A stretch of DNA of 64,000 bases, taken from NCBI GenBank assembly GCA_030695565.1, contig JAUYRZ010000053.1, positions 1 to 64,000 of the forward strand, written 5' to 3'. The notes under the pieces were generated by a model. It had not been told where the DNA came from. It saw only the letters and a list, made by a program, of their open reading frames with translations, and made no database searches. The translations under genes were made by a program, and so were the position numbers. This document shows positions 1,984-47,150 of the stretch, piece after piece (position 1 is the first letter of the stretch; the number at the start of each line of letters is the position of its first letter). The stretch comes from Archangium sp. (GTDB lineage Bacteria; Myxococcota; Myxococcia; Myxococcales; Myxococcaceae).

Positions 1984-6243
<4,260 letters not shown>

Positions 6244-41303: not shown

Positions 41304-43409
41304 ATGATCGTCGGCACTGCGGGACACGTCGATCACGGCAAGACCTCGCTGGTGAAGGCGCTGACCGGCATCGACACCGATCGACTGCCTGAAGAAAAGC
41401 GCCGCGGCATCACCCTCGAGCTCGGTTTCGCGCACCTGGAGTTGCCATCGGGCGCGACGGTGGGCGTCATCGATGTGCCCGGCCACGAACGGTTCGTGAA
41501 GGCGATGGCCGCGGGCGCAGGCGGCGTCGACGTCGCGCTGCTGGTGATCGCCGCCGATGAAGGCGTGATGCCGCAGACGCGCGAGCACGTCGACATCTGC
41601 TCCTTGCTCGGGGTGCGGAAGGGCGTGTTGGTGGTGACCAAGGCGGATCTCCTGCCGGGCCTGGGCGAGGGCTGGCTCGAGCTGCTCGAGGCCGACCTGC
41701 GTTCGTTGGTCGAAGGCACACCCTTCGAAGGCGCAGCGCTGGTGCAGGTGAGCGCGAAGTCGGGCGAAGGGCTCGACCCGTTGCGCGTGGAGATCGATCG
41801 CCTGGTCGCCCAGCTCGCAGCCGAACCCGACGCCGCGCGGGGCCCCGAGGCGCCGGTGTTCTTGCCCATCGATCGCGCCTTCAGCGCCAAGGGCTTCGGC
41901 CTGGTGGTGACCGGTACGCTCTGGTCGGGGCGGCTGACGCCGGAAGACGAAGTGAGCCTGCTGCCGGGTCTGGCGGGGCCGATGCGCGTGCGCGGGCTGC
42001 AGGTGCACGGCGCGAGCGTGACCGCGGCGGTGGCGGGAAATCGGGTGGCGGTGAATCTGCCCGAGCTCGAGGTGGCGCAGGTGCGGCGGGGCCTCGTGCT
42101 CACGCGGGCCGGGGAGTTGCCCGAAACGAAGGTGCTCGACGTCGAGCTCTCGTTGTTGCCTTCGGTCGAGACGCCGCTGGGCAGGCGCAGCCGGCAGCAG
42201 GTGACGTTGGGTACGGATCAGGTCGAGGCGGTCATTCGGCTGGTCGACGTCGATTCACTCCGGCCCGGCGAGCGCTGCTTCGCGCAGCTTCGGTTCTCCG
42301 CTCCGGTGGCGGCCATTCCCGGTCAGCGGTTCATTCTGCGCGGCACTCAGGTGATCGAAGGGCGGGGGGCCACGTTGGCGGGCGGCCGGGTGCTGTTGGT
42401 CAATCCACCCCGGCGGCGCGCAGGGGCCGCGGCGCGGCTGCAGCGTTTTGCCGAAGCGCCGCTGGAAGAGCGGCTGCGCTTGTTGCTCACCGAAGCGGGC
42501 TACGGCGGGCTCGACGAAGCAGGCCTCTTCGCGCGCGCGCAGTCGACGCAGAAGGAAGTCGCCAAAGCCCTGGAGCGCGCCTCCGCTCGCGGGGCGGTGG
42601 TGCTGGTCGATCGCGGAGCGGAGCCGGTCCACCGAGACGGTGGACCCGCCAGGCTCGGAGCGGAGCGGAGAACTGGCCAAGGCGAAGCGACCCGGGAAAG
42701 CGGAGCGGAGCCGGTCCACCGGGACGGTGGACCCGCCAGGCTCGGAGCGGAGCGGAGAACTGGCCAGGGCGAAGCGACCCGGAAACGAGAAAATCGCCGC
42801 TTCATCGCCAGCGAGGTGCTCAAGGCGCTGGAGGCGCGCGCGTTGGCCCGGCTGGAGGCGTTTCACGTGGCCAGCCCCGAGCGGGCGGGCATGCCGCGCG
42901 AAGAACTCCGTCAACGGCTGGGTGAACCACCGGAGCGGGTCTTCGCGCGCGTGGTGTTGGTGCTGCTGGAGAGCAGGAAGGTCGAGCGGGTCGATGAGCT
43001 GCTCCGTCTTCCCGGGCGGGGCCGCGCGTTCACCGAGGCCGCGGCCGCGCACCAGACGCAGCTGGCGGCGTTGCTCGAGGCCAGACAGCTCTCCCCGCCC
43101 ACGCTGCTCGAGCTGGAGTCGGCCCTCCGCCTTCCCCCTGCACGCGTCATCGAGCTTGGCCAGTCGCTCGTTTCCCAGGGCCAGGCCGTTCGTGCAGGCG
43201 AGCTCTTCTTCGCGAAGAGCGCCATCACCGCGCTGCACGGCAAGCTGCTGACCCACTTCGCCACGCACGAGAAGCTCAGCACGCAGACCTTCAAGGAGCT
43301 GACCGGTCTCTCCCGGAAATTCCTCATCCCGCTCGCCGAATATTTCGATCGCGAGAAGGTGACCCTGCGCGTGGGCGATGAGCGGTTGCTCCGGCGCAGC
43401 AAGGGCTGA
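41304..43409 (+). CDS. selB: Selenocysteine-specific elongation factor SelB
   Basis: SelB carries selenocysteyl-tRNA to UGA codons marked by a SECIS hairpin. The GTPase domain shows GHVDHGKT (residues 7-14), DVPGHE (57-62) and the TKAD base-recognition motif (112-115). Domains 2 and 3 and the C-terminal winged helices follow. At residues 437-495 a 29-residue segment is repeated twice in tandem; it is encoded by repeat DNA and looks foreign to the winged-helix region. It keeps frame, and downstream sequence remains family-like, so the gene is probably functional. No selenoprotein gene or tRNA-Sec was seen in the window. Confidence 0.92.
42614..42787. repeat. Two 87-bp tandem palindromic elements inside selB
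   Basis: Copies at 42614-42700 and 42701-42787 differ by only a few bases. Each has a perfect nine-base stem, GGTCCACCG with CGGTGGACC, around a three-base loop. At 87 bases (29 codons) each insertion keeps the frame. A related solo element occurs at 45463-45537. Confidence 0.9.
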
Positions 43410-43466: not shown

Positions 43467-44909
43467 GTGCTAGTCGTTCCCTTCGTGACTCCTGCTCCTC
43501 CGACGCAGCGCAAGGGCCGCATCCTCGTCGTCGACGATCAGCGCAACATGCGCGCCACCACGGCGCTGCTGCTCCGCGCTGAGGGGTACGTGGTCGACGA
43601 GGCTGGCGGTGGTGAAGAAGCGCTCGCCTGGCTGGCGGATCACCAGGTCGATCTGCTCCTGACCGACTTGAAGATGGAGCCGATGGATGGCCTCCAACTG
43701 CTCAAACGTGCGGTGGAGATCGCCCCGCGCCTCTCGGTCATCGTGATGACCGCCTACGGCAGCATCGAGACCGCCGTCGAGGCCATGCGCCGGGGCGCCT
43801 ACGACTACATCACCAAGCCCTTCAAAGACGGCGAGCTGATCCACCGCGTCGACAAGGGCCTCGAGCACGCCGGCCTCATCTCGGCGGTCGATCTCTTCGC
43901 CGGTGAGTTCAAGGCGCGCCACGGGCTCTCGTCGCTGGTCGGCCGCAGCCAGGCGATGCGCGACCTCACCACCCGCATTTCCCGGGTGGCGGCCAGCGAA
44001 GCCACCGTGCTGGTGCAGGGTGAATCAGGCACTGGCAAAGAGCTGGTCGCTCGCGCCATTCATGCGCTCTCGGGGCGTTCGCGCGCGCCGTTCGTGCCCG
44101 TCAACTGCGCAGCCATCACCGAGTCGCTGCTCGAGTCAGAGCTCTTCGGCCATGCCCGCGGCGCGTTCACCGGCGCCGTGAAGGCCCGCCGGGGCCTGTT
44201 CGAAGAAGCGCACGGTGGCACCATCTTCATCGACGAAGTGACCGAGACCGCGCCCGCCTTCCAGTCGAAGCTGCTGCGCGTGCTGCAGGAGGGCGAAGTG
44301 CGCCGCGTGGGCGAGAGCGTGTCGATCAAGGTCGATGCCCGCACCGTGGCCGCCACCAACCGCGACATCGAGCTGGAGGTGAACGACAAACGGTTCCGCC
44401 AGGACCTGTTCTACCGCCTGGCGGTGGTGACCCTGGTGGTGCCGCCCCTGCGCGAGCGCCTCGAAGACGTGCCCATCCTGGCGCAGCACTTTCTCGACCG
44501 GGCCAACGCGCGCAGCCGCAAGCCGCACCGGTTTCACCCCACCGCCCTCGACCACCTCGGCACCTACGGCTTCCCCGGCAACGTGCGCGAGCTGGAGAAC
44601 CTGGTGGAGCAGGCCGCGGCCCTGGCCGAAGGTGAAGAGCTGCTGCCCGACGACTTCCCGCTGCGCCGGAAGTCGGGCGACATGGTGCAGGTGCCGGCCG
44701 CCGCGCAGCCCGCTTCGGGGGGCCCCGTGCAGTCGTTGGCCGACGCGGTGACCGACGCCGAACGCCGGGCCATCACCAGCGCCCTGGAGCAGTCGCCCCA
44801 CGATCTGTCCCGCGTCGCCGAAGTGCTGGGCGTGTCGGCCACCACCTTGTGGCGCAAGATGAAGCGGCTCGGGCTCAAGACCACCGGAGAAGAACCCCAG
44901 TTGTCGTGA
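43467..44909 (+). CDS. NtrC-type sigma54 response regulator
   Basis: This 480-residue activator has a receiver domain with phosphorylation site Asp67 (LLLTDLKM). It also has an AAA+ domain with Walker A GESGTGKE (185-192) and the sigma54-contacting GAFTGA loop (232-237), and a Fis-like C-terminal HTH (ATTLWRKMKRLGL). It should switch on sigma54 promoters when phosphorylated by a histidine kinase, none of which is encoded nearby. The start is GTG 43467, or GTG 43485 as an alternative. It lies directly upstream of two sRNA genes with -24/-12-like promoters, so those are obvious candidate targets. Confidence 0.95.
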   Translation: MLVVPFVTPAPPTQRKGRILVVDDQRNMRATTALLLRAEGYVVDEAGGGEEALAWLADHQVDLLLTDLKMEPMDGLQLLKRAVEIAPRLSVIVMTAYGSIETAVEAMRRGAYDYITKPFKDGELIHRVDKGLEHAGLISAVDLFAGEFKARHGLSSLVGRSQAMRDLTTRISRVAASEATVLVQGESGTGKELVARAIHALSGRSRAPFVPVNCAAITESLLESELFGHARGAFTGAVKARRGLFEEAHGGTIFIDEVTETAPAFQSKLLRVLQEGEVRRVGESVSIKVDARTVAATNRDIELEVNDKRFRQDLFYRLAVVTLVVPPLRERLEDVPILAQHFLDRANARSRKPHRFHPTALDHLGTYGFPGNVRELENLVEQAAALAEGEELLPDDFPLRRKSGDMVQVPAAAQPASGGPVQSLADAVTDAERRAITSALEQSPHDLSRVAEVLGVSATTLWRKMKRLGLKTTGEEPQLS

Positions 44910-44922
44910 GCCGCCCGCTGTC

Positions 44923-44946
44923 CTGAAACAGGGCTGCCGGTTTCAG
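44923..44946 (+). terminator. Hairpin after the response regulator gene, overlapping possible activator half-sites
   Basis: CTGAAAC (44923-44929) and GTTTCAG (44940-44946) form a seven-base stem around a ten-base loop. The right arm is also the left half of the dyad at 44941, so a regulator-binding role is equally possible. Confidence 0.45.
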
Positions 44947-44954
44947 ATCTGAAA
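44941..44954. promoter_or_regulatory. Possible activator site (TTTC-N6-GAAA) for sRNA gene 1
   Basis: TTTCAGATCTGAAA is a perfect palindrome centred about 84 bases before the -24 box at 45030. A second TTTC-N6-GAAA dyad lies about 94 bases before the other -24 box, one helical turn different. Binding by the sigma54 regulator is inference. Confidence 0.4.
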
Positions 44955-45029
44955 TGGCTTCCGTTGCAGTTGTGCAAGGTCACTGTCTCTTCCCGCCTTC
45001 AACCGATTGAATTCGTTTCATCGGAGCGC

Positions 45030-45045
45030 TGGCACACGATTCGCT
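45030..45045 (+). promoter_or_regulatory. Sigma54-like -24/-12 promoter of sRNA gene 1
   Basis: TGGCACACGATTCGCT matches TGGCAC-N5-TTGCT with one mismatch and has the exact GG-N10-GC spacing. It predicts a transcript start near 45056. Confidence 0.6.
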
Positions 45046-45055
45046 GATGACCCGC

Positions 45056-45172
45056 GCATCGGGCAGACGATGGCTGAAGGAGGTTCCCCCCCACCACTTC
45101 AGCAGCCTCGCCCGAGATGAGGCCAAGAAGACCCGCGGCTCGACGCGAACCTGCGCCGAGTCGCCTTTTTTT
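45056..45172 (+). ncRNA. Pxr-like small RNA, copy 1
   Basis: The predicted RNA of about 117 bases starts 12 bases after the -12 box and ends in an intrinsic terminator. Bases 45069-45111 match 45331-45373 of the second copy closely. This shared core forms TGAAG/CTTCA pairing around a loop of TTCCCCCCC, followed by AGCAGCCTCG; both copies also share AAGAAGACCCGCGG before the terminator. The position between a sigma54 regulator gene and nuoN is, as I remember it, that of M. xanthus Pxr, an sRNA that blocks fruiting-body development when food is present. The C-rich loop could pair with G-rich ribosome binding sites. The identification as Pxr is inference. Confidence 0.7.
45135..45172 (+). terminator. 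Intrinsic terminator of sRNA gene 1
   Basis: A stem pairs 45135-45142 with 45157-45164, plus three more pairs above one mismatch, and is followed by seven Ts at 45166-45172. Confidence 0.85.
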
Positions 45173-45191
45173 GTCCGGTGGCCTGGCGGCG

Positions 45192-45205
45192 TTTCGATCC
45201 CGAAA
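45192..45205. promoter_or_regulatory. Possible activator site (TTTC-N6-GAAA) for sRNA gene 2
   Basis: TTTCGATCCCGAAA carries the same half-sites as 44941-44954. It is centred about 94 bases before the second -24 box. A run of five Ts at 45210-45214 follows, so it might instead be a weak terminator. Confidence 0.35.
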
Positions 45206-45290
45206 CCCGTTTTTCATCGCTGCAATTCAGGGCTGAAGCGAAACGTCCCCCAGCCCACGCCAACACACTGAAAAAACTCAAAGAAGCACG

Positions 45291-45306
45291 TGGCATGCGC
45301 CTCGCA
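45291..45306 (+). promoter_or_regulatory. Sigma54-like -24/-12 promoter of sRNA gene 2
   Basis: TGGCATGCGCCTCGCA keeps the GG-N10-GC spacing and the TCGC of copy 1. It predicts a start near 45317, which puts the shared core 14 bases in, against 13 in copy 1. Confidence 0.55.
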
Positions 45307-45316
45307 GAGCATTCCT

Positions 45317-45440
45317 CCGACGCAGCAGTCGATGTGTTGAAGGGGTTCCCCCCCACCGCTTCAGCAGCCTCGCTGTGTTGGCAGTGCAAGAAGACCCGCG
45401 GCCCGGTGCTCCATCACGGAACACCGGGCCGCCTTCTTTT
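45317..45440 (+). ncRNA. Pxr-like small RNA, copy 2
   Basis: About 124 bases long, it has the same plan as copy 1: a short leader, the conserved hairpin with C-rich loop (45337-45366), a variable stretch, AAGAAGACCCGCGG and a terminator. The variable stretch (45374-45385) differs from copy 1, while the core differs at only a few places. This suggests an old duplication with selection on the hairpin. It has its own promoter-like sequence, so the two could respond differently. No open reading frame with a ribosome binding site fits the region. Confidence 0.7.
45398..45440 (+). terminator. Intrinsic terminator of sRNA gene 2
   Basis: A perfect eleven-base stem (45398-45408 with 45422-45432) is followed by CTTCTTTT. 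It is one of the strongest terminator signals in the window. Confidence 0.9.
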
Positions 45441-45462
45441 GGGCCTGGGAAACCGGAGCAGA

Positions 45463-45537
45463 GCCGGTCCAGCGGAACGCTGGGCGATCGCAGCGGAAGA
45501 TGCGCCGAGGCGGAGCGACCAGCAAAACGGCCCCTCC
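45463..45537. repeat. Solo copy related to the selB insert
   Basis: GAGCCGGTCCAGCG-GAA-CGCTGG keeps the layout of the selB element (palindrome around a three-base loop, then a GGCGGAGCGACC tail) but has diverged. It lies between sRNA gene 2 and the nuoN stop. Confidence 0.65.
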
Positions 45538-45587
45538 ACCGCGTGAGCAGGGAGAGGCCGGGAGCATTTCAACAACTCGGAGAAACT

Positions 45588-47150
45588 TCAGTGACCGAAG
45601 ATCATGCCCAGGCGGCCGAACCACTCGGTGATCGGCCCCGGCACGATGCCCAGACCCACCACGGCGACCGCTGAGGTGATCAACGCCAACTCGGTGGTCC
45701 AGTGGCGAACCGGCGTCGTGGCGTCTGCCGGAGCCGGGCGCATGAACATGTACACCACCACCCGCAGGTAGAAATACACGCCCACCACGCTGGAGAGGAT
45801 GCCGACCGCCGCCAACCCGAGCAGGCCCGCATCGACCGCCGCGCTGAAGAGGAACAGCTTGCCCAGGAAGCCCACCGTGGGGGGCACGCCGCCCAGCGAC
45901 AACATGAACGCGGCCATCGCCAGCGCCCAACCCGGCCGGCGCTGCGCCAGACCCGCGAACCGCTCGAGGTCCCAGGTGTTGCCGCGGGTCTCGTCTTCCC
46001 GGCGCTCGAGCGCGGAGATGGTGCCGAACGCGCCCAACGAGGTGACGGTGTAACCCAGCAGGTAGAAGAGGATGCCCTTGTAGACGCCCGACGACACGTT
46101 GGGCACCAGGCCCATCAGCGGCGTGGCGCTGAACACGCCCACGTCGGTGGTGGTCGCCGCACCCTGAGGCGCGAACAGCGCCGCCACGCCCAGCAGCAGG
46201 TAGCCCGCGTGCGCGATGGAGGAGTACGCCAGCATGCGCTTGACGTTGCGTTGGGGCAGGGCGAGCAGGTTGCCGCCGATCATGGTGAGCAGGGCCATGC
46301 CGCTGAAGAGATAGAACGGCATCTCCGGGGGAATGCCCTTCACCAGGAACAACGAGGTGCGCACCAGCGCGATGAACGCCGCCGCCTTCACGCCCGCGCT
46401 CATCAGCGCGGTGACCGGAGTGGGCGCGCCTTCGTAGACGTCGGGCGTCCACATGTGGAACGGCACCGCCGCCACCTTGAAGGCAAAGCCGGCCAGCACC
46501 AGGCCCAGGCCCGCGTACACCAGGCCCGGCGAGGCGATGAAGGCCGCGGGCAACGCTGCGCTCACTTCGATGAGCTTGGTCGCGCCCGTCGCTCCGTAGA
46601 GCAGCGCCGCGCCGTAGAGCAGCAGGGCCGCCGAGAAGGCACCGAGGATGAAGTACTTGAAGCCGGCCTCCGAAGGACGCGGGCCGCGGCGCAGGAAGGC
46701 CGTGAGCGCGTAGGTGGCGATCGACATCACCTCGAGGTTGATGAACAGGGTGATGAACTCGGCCGACAACGCCAGCAGGCTCATGCCGGCCGCCGCGAAC
46801 AGCATCAGCGCGTAGAACTCACCACGCTCGGCGTTGCGGTGCTTCAAGAACCCCGACGAGAGCAACACCGCCAGCCCCGTGCCCAGGCAGACCATCGCCG
46901 TCATCCAGCTCGAGAACGGGTCGAGCACCGCGTAGCCCTGCAGCGCCGCGCGCGCGGGCTCGAAGGCGTTGTGCACCGCGACGCCGCCGGCGACCACGGT
47001 CGCGAGGGTGGCCAGCATCGCCTGGTACGTGCGGGTGGCCGAGACGAGGAACACCTCGGAGAGCATCAGCACGATGGCCGCGACGACCAACACCGCCGCG
47101 GGCATCACGGGGAGGAAGTCGTTGAGCGTAAAGACAGGGGTGACAATCAC
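45588..47150 (-). CDS. nuoN: NADH-quinone oxidoreductase subunit N
   Basis: NuoN is one of three antiporter-like membrane subunits that pump protons in respiratory complex I. The 520-residue protein has about 14 membrane helices and conserved stretches such as FFYALMLFAAAGM-like ARGEFYALMLF, FKVAAVPFHMWTPDVYEGAPTPV (parts of one loop) and AYSSIAHAGY. These contain the Lys and His residues of the pump path. GTG 47148-47150 overlaps the nuoM stop (GTGA). It is the last gene of the operon and faces the two sRNA genes. Confidence 0.96.
   Translation of the reverse strand: MIVTPVFTLNDFLPVMPAAVLVVAAIVLMLSEVFLVSATRTYQAMLATLATVVAGGVAVHNAFEPARAALQGYAVLDPFSSWMTAMVCLGTGLAVLLSSGFLKHRNAERGEFYALMLFAAAGMSLLALSAEFITLFINLEVMSIATYALTAFLRRGPRPSEAGFKYFILGAFSAALLLYGAALLYGATGATKLIEVSAALPAAFIASPGLVYAGLGLVLAGFAFKVAAVPFHMWTPDVYEGAPTPVTALMSAGVKAAAFIALVRTSLFLVKGIPPEMPFYLFSGMALLTMIGGNLLALPQRNVKRMLAYSSIAHAGYLLLGVAALFAPQGAATTTDVGVFSATPLMGLVPNVSSGVYKGILFYLLGYTVTSLGAFGTISALERREDETRGNTWDLERFAGLAQRRPGWALAMAAFMLSLGGVPPTVGFLGKLFLFSAAVDAGLLGLAAVGILSSVVGVYFYLRVVVYMFMRPAPADATTPVRHWTTELALITSAVAVVGLGIVPGPITEWFGRLGMIFGH

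Follow-up and report, generated by a model that had tools for sequence, protein, structure and literature searches.

A 64,000-nt stretch of an Archangium sp. genome (the window) is best explained as carrying two paralogous Pxr sRNA genes, each a self-contained module driven by PxrR and sigma54, and we consider this explanation as a whole very likely. It is based on homology, position, conservation, covariation, and the genome-wide specificity of a palindrome-plus-box pattern. Transcription of both units is predicted from sequence. Pxr is an sRNA that stops Myxococcus fruiting-body building while food lasts. Its direct targets, the control of its synthesis, and its processing are open questions in bacterial multicellularity.

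Two Pxr units between pxrR and nuoN

The gene order in the window is a selB-like gene, pxrR, unit 1, unit 2, and, on the opposite strand, nuoN. The selB-like gene (41304–43409, forward strand; Pfam SelB-wing_2/3 and GTP_EFTU, and synteny) lies directly 5′ of pxrR. The latter, an ortholog of nla19 (43467–44909, forward strand), encodes 480 aa with a receiver, a sigma54-activation domain, and a Fis-type HTH in Pfam, and PxrR matches its ortholog in the Myxococcus-type genome G103 at 73%. The downstream border of the pxr interval is nuoN (45588–47150, reverse strand; Pfam Proton_antipo_M). Pfam and synteny confirm the location given in the initial annotation, between an NtrC-type sigma54 regulator and nuoN. 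The selB-like gene has an insertion with an internal repeat (27 residues, twice) at 42615–42785, approximately residues 438–494, and the SelB of locus L135 aligns on both sides of it.

Positions 43500–46500 were scanned against Rfam release 15, and Pxr (RF01812) was the sole family matched at E ≤ 1. Unit 2 matched at 45329–45440 (61.3 bits, E 1.9e-9) and unit 1 at 45066–45172 (48.3 bits, E 1.3e-6); each match covers model positions 1–109. The proposed identity as Pxr is thereby upheld, though neither unit reaches the curated gathering score of 80 bits. The two Pxr copies listed for G046 also score below it (75.8 and 72.3 bits). Across the whole 8.5-Mb genome (134 contigs), the two units are the top Rfam matches. 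No extra copy elsewhere exceeds 23.1 bits with Rfam, the score of the third best match, or 24.0 bits with R1, our own search model. R1 was trained on the window units among others, so it matches them by construction, and its E-values are rough.

Unit 1 spans 45056–45172 and unit 2 spans 45317–45440, both on the forward strand and delimited by Rfam, footprint, and folding, with predicted lengths to the T-run of 117 and 124 nt; positions and lengths are as first annotated. Each follows a forward-strand sigma54-type −24/−12 box identified by sequence and unit survey, TGGCACACGATTCGC for unit 1 (45030–45044) and TGGCATGCGCCTCGC for unit 2 (45291–45305), both with GG-N10-GC spacing. The predicted starts, 45056 and 45317, lie 12 bases after the boxes. 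Common to both units are a core, GGTTCCCCCCCACC-N-CTTCAGCAGCCTCGC, and a block, AAGAAGACCCGCGG; these, the boxes, and the starts were found just as the initial annotation had described them.

Both units contain the SL1 hairpin with a C-rich loop (GGUU-CCCCCCC-ACC). Among 53 aligned units, most columns of the SL1 loop and stem top are invariant or at least 90% alike. SL3 has a conserved 8-bp segment followed by a T-run, formed by GCGGCCCG/CGGGCCGC in unit 2 and by GCGGCTCG/CGAGTCGC, with one G-U pair, in unit 1. Compensatory changes were found in 8 of 16 SL3 pairs. When tested for the SL1-SL2-SL3 arrangement, unit 1 folds as three stem-loops: SL1 (45073–45103), an SL2-like hairpin (45105–45123), and the SL3 terminator (45135–45163 plus T-run). 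Once its predicted leader is included, unit 2 folds as a helix, P0 (45317–45328 with 45369–45381), around SL1 (45335–45366), then the SL3 terminator. Folding had been suggested as a check, and both units proved more stable than all 200 dinucleotide shuffles (z −3.76 for unit 1, with an input 8 bases too long, and −5.33 for unit 2, with input 5 bases short).

Conservation was scored as the columns invariant in the window genome (G000) and its relatives G051 and G052. Invariant columns number 80/107 in unit 1 and 100/112 in unit 2, 13/15 and 10/15 in their boxes, 32/118 in the spacer, 39/120 upstream, and 25/147 downstream, where the sequence is not homologous in G051, whose nuoN is not beside pxr. 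Conservation in related genomes is thus borne out, with both units kept in G051 and G052 against a drifting spacer. The initial annotation also described divergence outside the hairpin; this holds for unit 1 and fails for unit 2, which is more strongly conserved than any other part of the interval.

A candidate PxrR enhancer at a locus without pxrK

Two palindromes precede each box: 1a (TTTCAGATCTGAAA, 44941–44954) and 1b (TTGCAGTTGTGCAA, 44964–44977) for unit 1, and 2a (TTTCGATCCCGAAA, 45192–45205) and 2b (TTTCATCGCTGCAA, 45212–45225) for unit 2. Palindromes 1a and 2a are the candidate PxrR enhancers of their units, and 1a is invariant in G000, G051, and G052. Of 95 surveyed units, 55 have an exact TTTCR-N4-YGAAA 5′ of the box (shuffle mean 0.05), and 87 have this pattern with at most one mismatch (shuffle mean 0.9); the two window units are not independent in these counts, the pattern having been derived from them. 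With the same tolerance it occurs in 87/87 assessable units of PxrR-bearing genomes versus 0/5 in genomes without PxrR. The PxrR orthologs match at 69–95%, and the best match in the PxrR-less genomes is at most 47%. The eight units without it are those five (G122, G123, and G125–G127), one cut by a contig end (L072), and the Rfam matches L120 (G075) and L121 (G054). These last two have no proper sigma54-like box and no palindrome; they were judged false and dropped from the tree and structure counts. The wider form TTKCR-N4-YGMAA occurs twice in 67 of the 95 units, once in 12, three times in 7, and in 9 not at all. Palindromes are most commonly spaced 19 bases apart (45/81).

A palindrome-plus-box search of the 8.5-Mb window genome gave two matches, both at pxr. 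Over 12 genomes it gave 12 matches, 11 of them at pxr, and the reversed control gave none. The remaining match, L127 in G053, has no pxr behind it by eye and was set aside as chance or another gene. Four of the 12 genomes (G103, G056, G083, and G042) gave no match; their exact palindromes lie at −111 or −112, just beyond the permitted distance. Among loci with record titles, which overlap with the surveyed genomes, at least one palindrome precedes 28 of 30 boxed units, and a 31st is cut by a contig end.

This co-occurrence points to PxrR as the probable binder and to the palindrome as its candidate enhancer. M. xanthus cannot make Pxr without PxrR, according to sections of PMC10217877, and PMC5684412 mentions an "upstream enhancer binding region", with no motif given in the portions available. 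The palindrome upstream of the sigma54 box is new here and is a concrete site at which PxrR binding can be tested. PxrR orthologs are more widely distributed than pxr. Of 20 further regulator loci, three of the 20 being only paralog-like (49–52%), 15 lack a palindrome in the 700 bases that follow the regulator gene.

Pxr units also occur where PxrR does not. L106 (G122) and L107 (G123) have a Pxr unit with no palindrome, GG-N10-GC box, or genomic PxrR ortholog; upstream is TTGTCA-N17-TATYTG, sigma70-type by eye, a possible promoter switch after PxrR loss. In the 2.1–2.7 Mb genomes G125–G127 (L109–L111), Pxr adjoins nuoN, the box is kept, the palindrome is gone, and there is no PxrR ortholog.

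Myxococcus-type loci have the order selB, pxrK, pxrR, pxr, (pxrA), nuoN. In the window, pxrK is absent between selB and pxrR. The best pxrK match in the window genome is 51% over residues 584–829 of 830 only, the kinase core, and five other genomes of the genus (G049–G053) are similar, versus 65% over the full length in the Myxococcus-type G103. No kinase was found beside pxrR in G084, G087, G089, G128, and six g26 loci examined, absences that are soft because most relatives are draft or metagenome assemblies. A PxrK-like kinase (41–47%, approximately residues 387–830) stands 5′ of pxrR in 10 of 11 loci of a short Pxr form, mini-Pxr, described below, and the absence in the window therefore looks like loss. 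The pxrK neighborhood is a property of the published loci and not of the Pxr RNA. Since pxrK is gone, PxrR here would have to take its input from a different kinase or work with none, and kinase-less loci raise the question of what PxrR senses. pxrA, proposed as a Pxr target in the available text of PMC11928866, has no match in the window genome at E ≤ 1e-5; distant matches lie elsewhere in the genomes of G051 (36%) and G052 (33%).

A predicted leader helix, P0, and duplication history

The Rfam Pxr model begins approximately 12 nt after the box-predicted start. The 5′ leader is predicted to pair with the segment after SL1 in a helix, P0; of 91 units (93 units, less 2 without a box), 89 have a minimum-energy fold with at least five such pairs. 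Only window unit 1 (0 pairs) and the unit of G091 (4 pairs) fall short. Pairing probability is 0.999 in unit 2 and at most 0.07 in unit 1, which disfavors P0 by only 2.4 kcal/mol and whose orthologs in G051 and G052 retain it. P0 is also predicted in the M. xanthus AM003 record (L048).

Native leader duplexes average −13.7 kcal/mol versus −9.0 (sd 0.53) when leaders are shuffled among 24 genera, with 0 of 20,000 shuffles as good. A cruder leader swap that kept part of SL1 was weaker, the native leader exceeding both swaps in 15 of 24 genera. P0 was aligned in 35 sequences from eight genera (34 of 42 distinct sequences, plus L101), and 88.5% of its cells are paired. Both-side changes (G-C/A-U exchanges) occur at two of ten pairs, in 9 and 13 sequences, and one pair (columns 9–65) is mismatched in 26 of the 35. 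For this alignment, the covariation score and paired cells exceed all 500 shuffles; pairs altered on both sides number 4, a count that 184 of the 500 shuffles reach.

P0 would be a helix outside the published three-stem-loop model and is new here; it adds a leader which that model omits. P0 and the published SL2 would be mutually exclusive because P0 uses SL2 bases. The leader model would place transcript starts 26–30 nt 5′ of GGTTCCCC. All alleles tested in PMC5568312 had the M. xanthus upstream region, as far as its available sections describe them, and because they were built behind that region they carried the M. xanthus leader. P0 could be a reason why chimeric alleles might misbehave.

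In the family survey, R1 matched 95 of 96 genomes; G134 had no match, the G049 match is only a piece cut by the contig start, and that in G086 is weak (46.6 bits). This last locus (L135) has an SL1-like C-loop core and terminator beside selB, no sigma54 box by eye, and no PxrR ortholog in its genome. Weak second R1 matches (e.g., 32.9–34.4 bits in G129, G135, and G109) were not counted as copies, and model match L139 (G139) is by eye a terminator only. Of the 96 genomes, 15 carry tandem units (G000, G051–G053, G043–G048, G072–G075, and G121); those of G046 are located at two contig ends. Copies that lie outside the interval were found in G087, G092, and G121, and all of them have a box and a palindrome. 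The unit or units of G050 and G053 are inverted relative to pxrR and nuoN, and because the inversion carries palindromes and boxes along, the module appears self-contained. A record titled Comamonas sp. KCTC 72670 (L040, BNCN01000002.1) has a Myxococcus-type pxr core and looks like a mislabelled myxobacterial genome.

A tree was built from 77 units, 16 long or odd rows of 93 having been left out beforehand; the rows are short. Each window unit groups with its position-mates from G051 and G052, the unit-1 trio at 100/96 and the unit-2 trio at 95/82. With all 93 rows, the unit-2 trio remains (97/87), and unit 1 of G052 is unresolved beside the other two (96/94). A recent duplication in the window genome, with the two units as nearest kin, was rejected (p 0.0038). 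In AU tests, whose groups were named after the first tree was seen, grouping the later Archangium/Cystobacter-type copies with window-type unit 2 in one clade was rejected (p 0.0114), and a clade of window-type unit 1 with the first copies of that type was not (p 0.064); nor was a single clade uniting the six window-type units (p 0.128). Sequence comparison thus suggests that the window pair is probably an old duplication, separate from the Cystobacter type. In Archangium/Cystobacter-type arrays (e.g., L068, L069, L073, L081, and L082), the first copies of 8 of 10 genomes form one clade. Later copies are often near-identical within a genome, which suggests homogenization or recent expansion behind a fixed first copy.

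Mini-Pxr, alternative explanations, and known systems

Weak R1 matches outside the family (33–35 bits) led to a short form of approximately 75 nt, mini-Pxr. Its elements are one or more palindromes, a box, a leader, a GGWCCCCCCCCRCCAC core, and a leader-complementary terminator strand. By box and core, it was found in 14 genomes (G013–G019, G021, G024, G034, G035, and G039–G041). A PxrR ortholog lies 5′ in all 14, within approximately 300 bases in 13 and at 1.7 kb in G016. On the other strand 3′, nuoN is found in 10 (G013–G019, G021, G034, and G035), and it had no match at the cut-off used in the examined pieces of G024 and G039–G041. Thirteen copies (11 distinct, without G041) were aligned, and 94.8% of cells are paired. 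Both-side changes occur at 8 of 26 pairs, versus a shuffle mean of 3.4, with 0 of 500 shuffles as high; further pair types are not raised (489 of 500 as high). Rfam found no Pxr in four mini-Pxr loci even at E ≤ 1. G041 (L178) has three tandem copies with boxes, at oriented positions 4294, 4552, and 4839, and in the stretch viewed a clear palindrome was seen by eye only before the first. G143 and G144 were not counted, since their palindromes, box, and C-run come with no clear SL1 core; the very long C-run of G144 may be an assembly fault.

Genus g31 of the mini-Pxr genomes, which includes G014, is very probably Anaeromyxobacter, whose members form no multicellular fruits (PMC8538405, relevant passages). 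Mini-Pxr, which has its switch, box, C-loop, and regulator in common with Pxr, is new here. Pxr may predate its developmental role, and mini-Pxr lets the ancestral function be sought in culturable non-fruiting bacteria.

Each Pxr gene would be a module of a palindrome pair, a sigma54 promoter, an RNA of approximately 120 nt, and an intrinsic terminator. PxrR, encoded just 5′, would be the enhancer-binding protein that recognizes the palindromes and activates sigma54 RNA polymerase. The RNA would then expose the C-rich loop on SL1, which in nearly all relatives examined is predicted to sit atop the longer P0 hairpin, followed by the SL3 terminator. The loop may pair with G-rich stretches of target mRNAs and restrain development genes in growth, as M. 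xanthus Pxr does. Unit 2 appears to have kept P0 under strong constraint; unit 1 would favor the fold with three hairpins, and its processing or dosage may differ.

That only one copy is functional, the other being a decaying relic of duplication, is unlikely. Unit 1 has the lower score, is less conserved, and has lost P0 by prediction, and two of four Cystobacter paralogs tested did not block M. xanthus development (PMC5568312, in the part available). However, unit 1 is far more conserved than the spacer, its box and palindrome 1a are largely or fully invariant in three genomes, and its orthologs in G051 and G052 keep P0. It is scarcely credible that the region instead codes for a small protein with incidental hairpins: the 122-aa open frame over unit 2 (45178–45546) was rejected for its stops in G051 and G052, where the RNA is conserved, and compensatory changes occur in SL3 and P0.

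A stronger case, with a little under an even chance, can be made that Pxr in the window is a metabolic or respiratory regulator and not a developmental gatekeeper, the fruiting role being a later co-option in the fruiting line. Mini-Pxr stands behind a PxrR ortholog in probable Anaeromyxobacter, Pxr is retained in the three 2.1–2.7 Mb genomes without a PxrR ortholog, pxrA went unmatched in the window genome, and excerpts of PMC11928866 report that Pxr also supports metabolism genes in M. xanthus. The common nuoN neighborhood counts for it as well, but this adjacency may be passive, and single-copy Pxr homologs from other species block M. xanthus development, as reported in accessible sections of PMC5568312. 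With the two-module explanation of the window preferred, we hold a wider history to be evenly balanced, in which Pxr was non-developmental at its root. The PxrR/sigma54 C-loop hairpin would predate the fruiting Myxococcaceae and survive as mini-Pxr in non-fruiting Anaeromyxobacter and kin. It would later have gained its own terminator, undergone several independent duplications (the window genus, Archangium/Cystobacter, and the G041 mini triple), and been recruited to guard fruiting. P0 would be the shared backbone, and P0 versus SL2 could be a switch between long and short Pxr processing, split in the window between unit 2 (P0) and unit 1 (SL2-type).

Published work on M. xanthus Pxr has shown that it blocks development and that PxrR, SL1, and SL3 are required. 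The window shares with it (RF01812) SL1 with the C-loop, the SL3 terminator, the sigma54 box, and the place between pxrR (nla19) and nuoN; available text of PMC5568312 likewise puts pxr between nla19 and an NADH dehydrogenase gene. In contrast to M. xanthus, the window has two copies instead of one, no pxrK beside pxrR, no pxrA found in its genome, and scores of 48–61 bits versus 129 in M. xanthus-type genomes. The initial annotation had called the duplication notable. The tandem pair is real, but it is less new than supposed: according to portions of PMC5568312, which cites Chen et al. 2014, two Cystobacter species carry Pxr paralogs in tandem in this interval, each behind a sigma54 promoter of its own, and Cb.1 and Cb.3 are also without SL2. 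Archangium/Cystobacter-type arrays reach five copies, some identical within a genome (G047 and G074), unlike the old, diverged pair of the window.

Qrr sRNAs are under sigma54 and LuxO control. In Vibrio they exist in several copies (PMC5568312, in part) and resemble the window pair in that one response regulator controls a single sRNA encoded in multiple sigma54-driven copies, a likeness of regulation with no sequence relation claimed. Mini-Pxr shares with the window the palindrome, box, C-loop core, PxrR ortholog 5′, and, in 10 of 14, nuoN 3′; it differs in its length of approximately 75 nt, its one hairpin, its leader paired with the terminator strand, and having no separate SL3. The pair alone is of a kind already known, and the kinase-less locus with a split fold and the mini form found through it are new.
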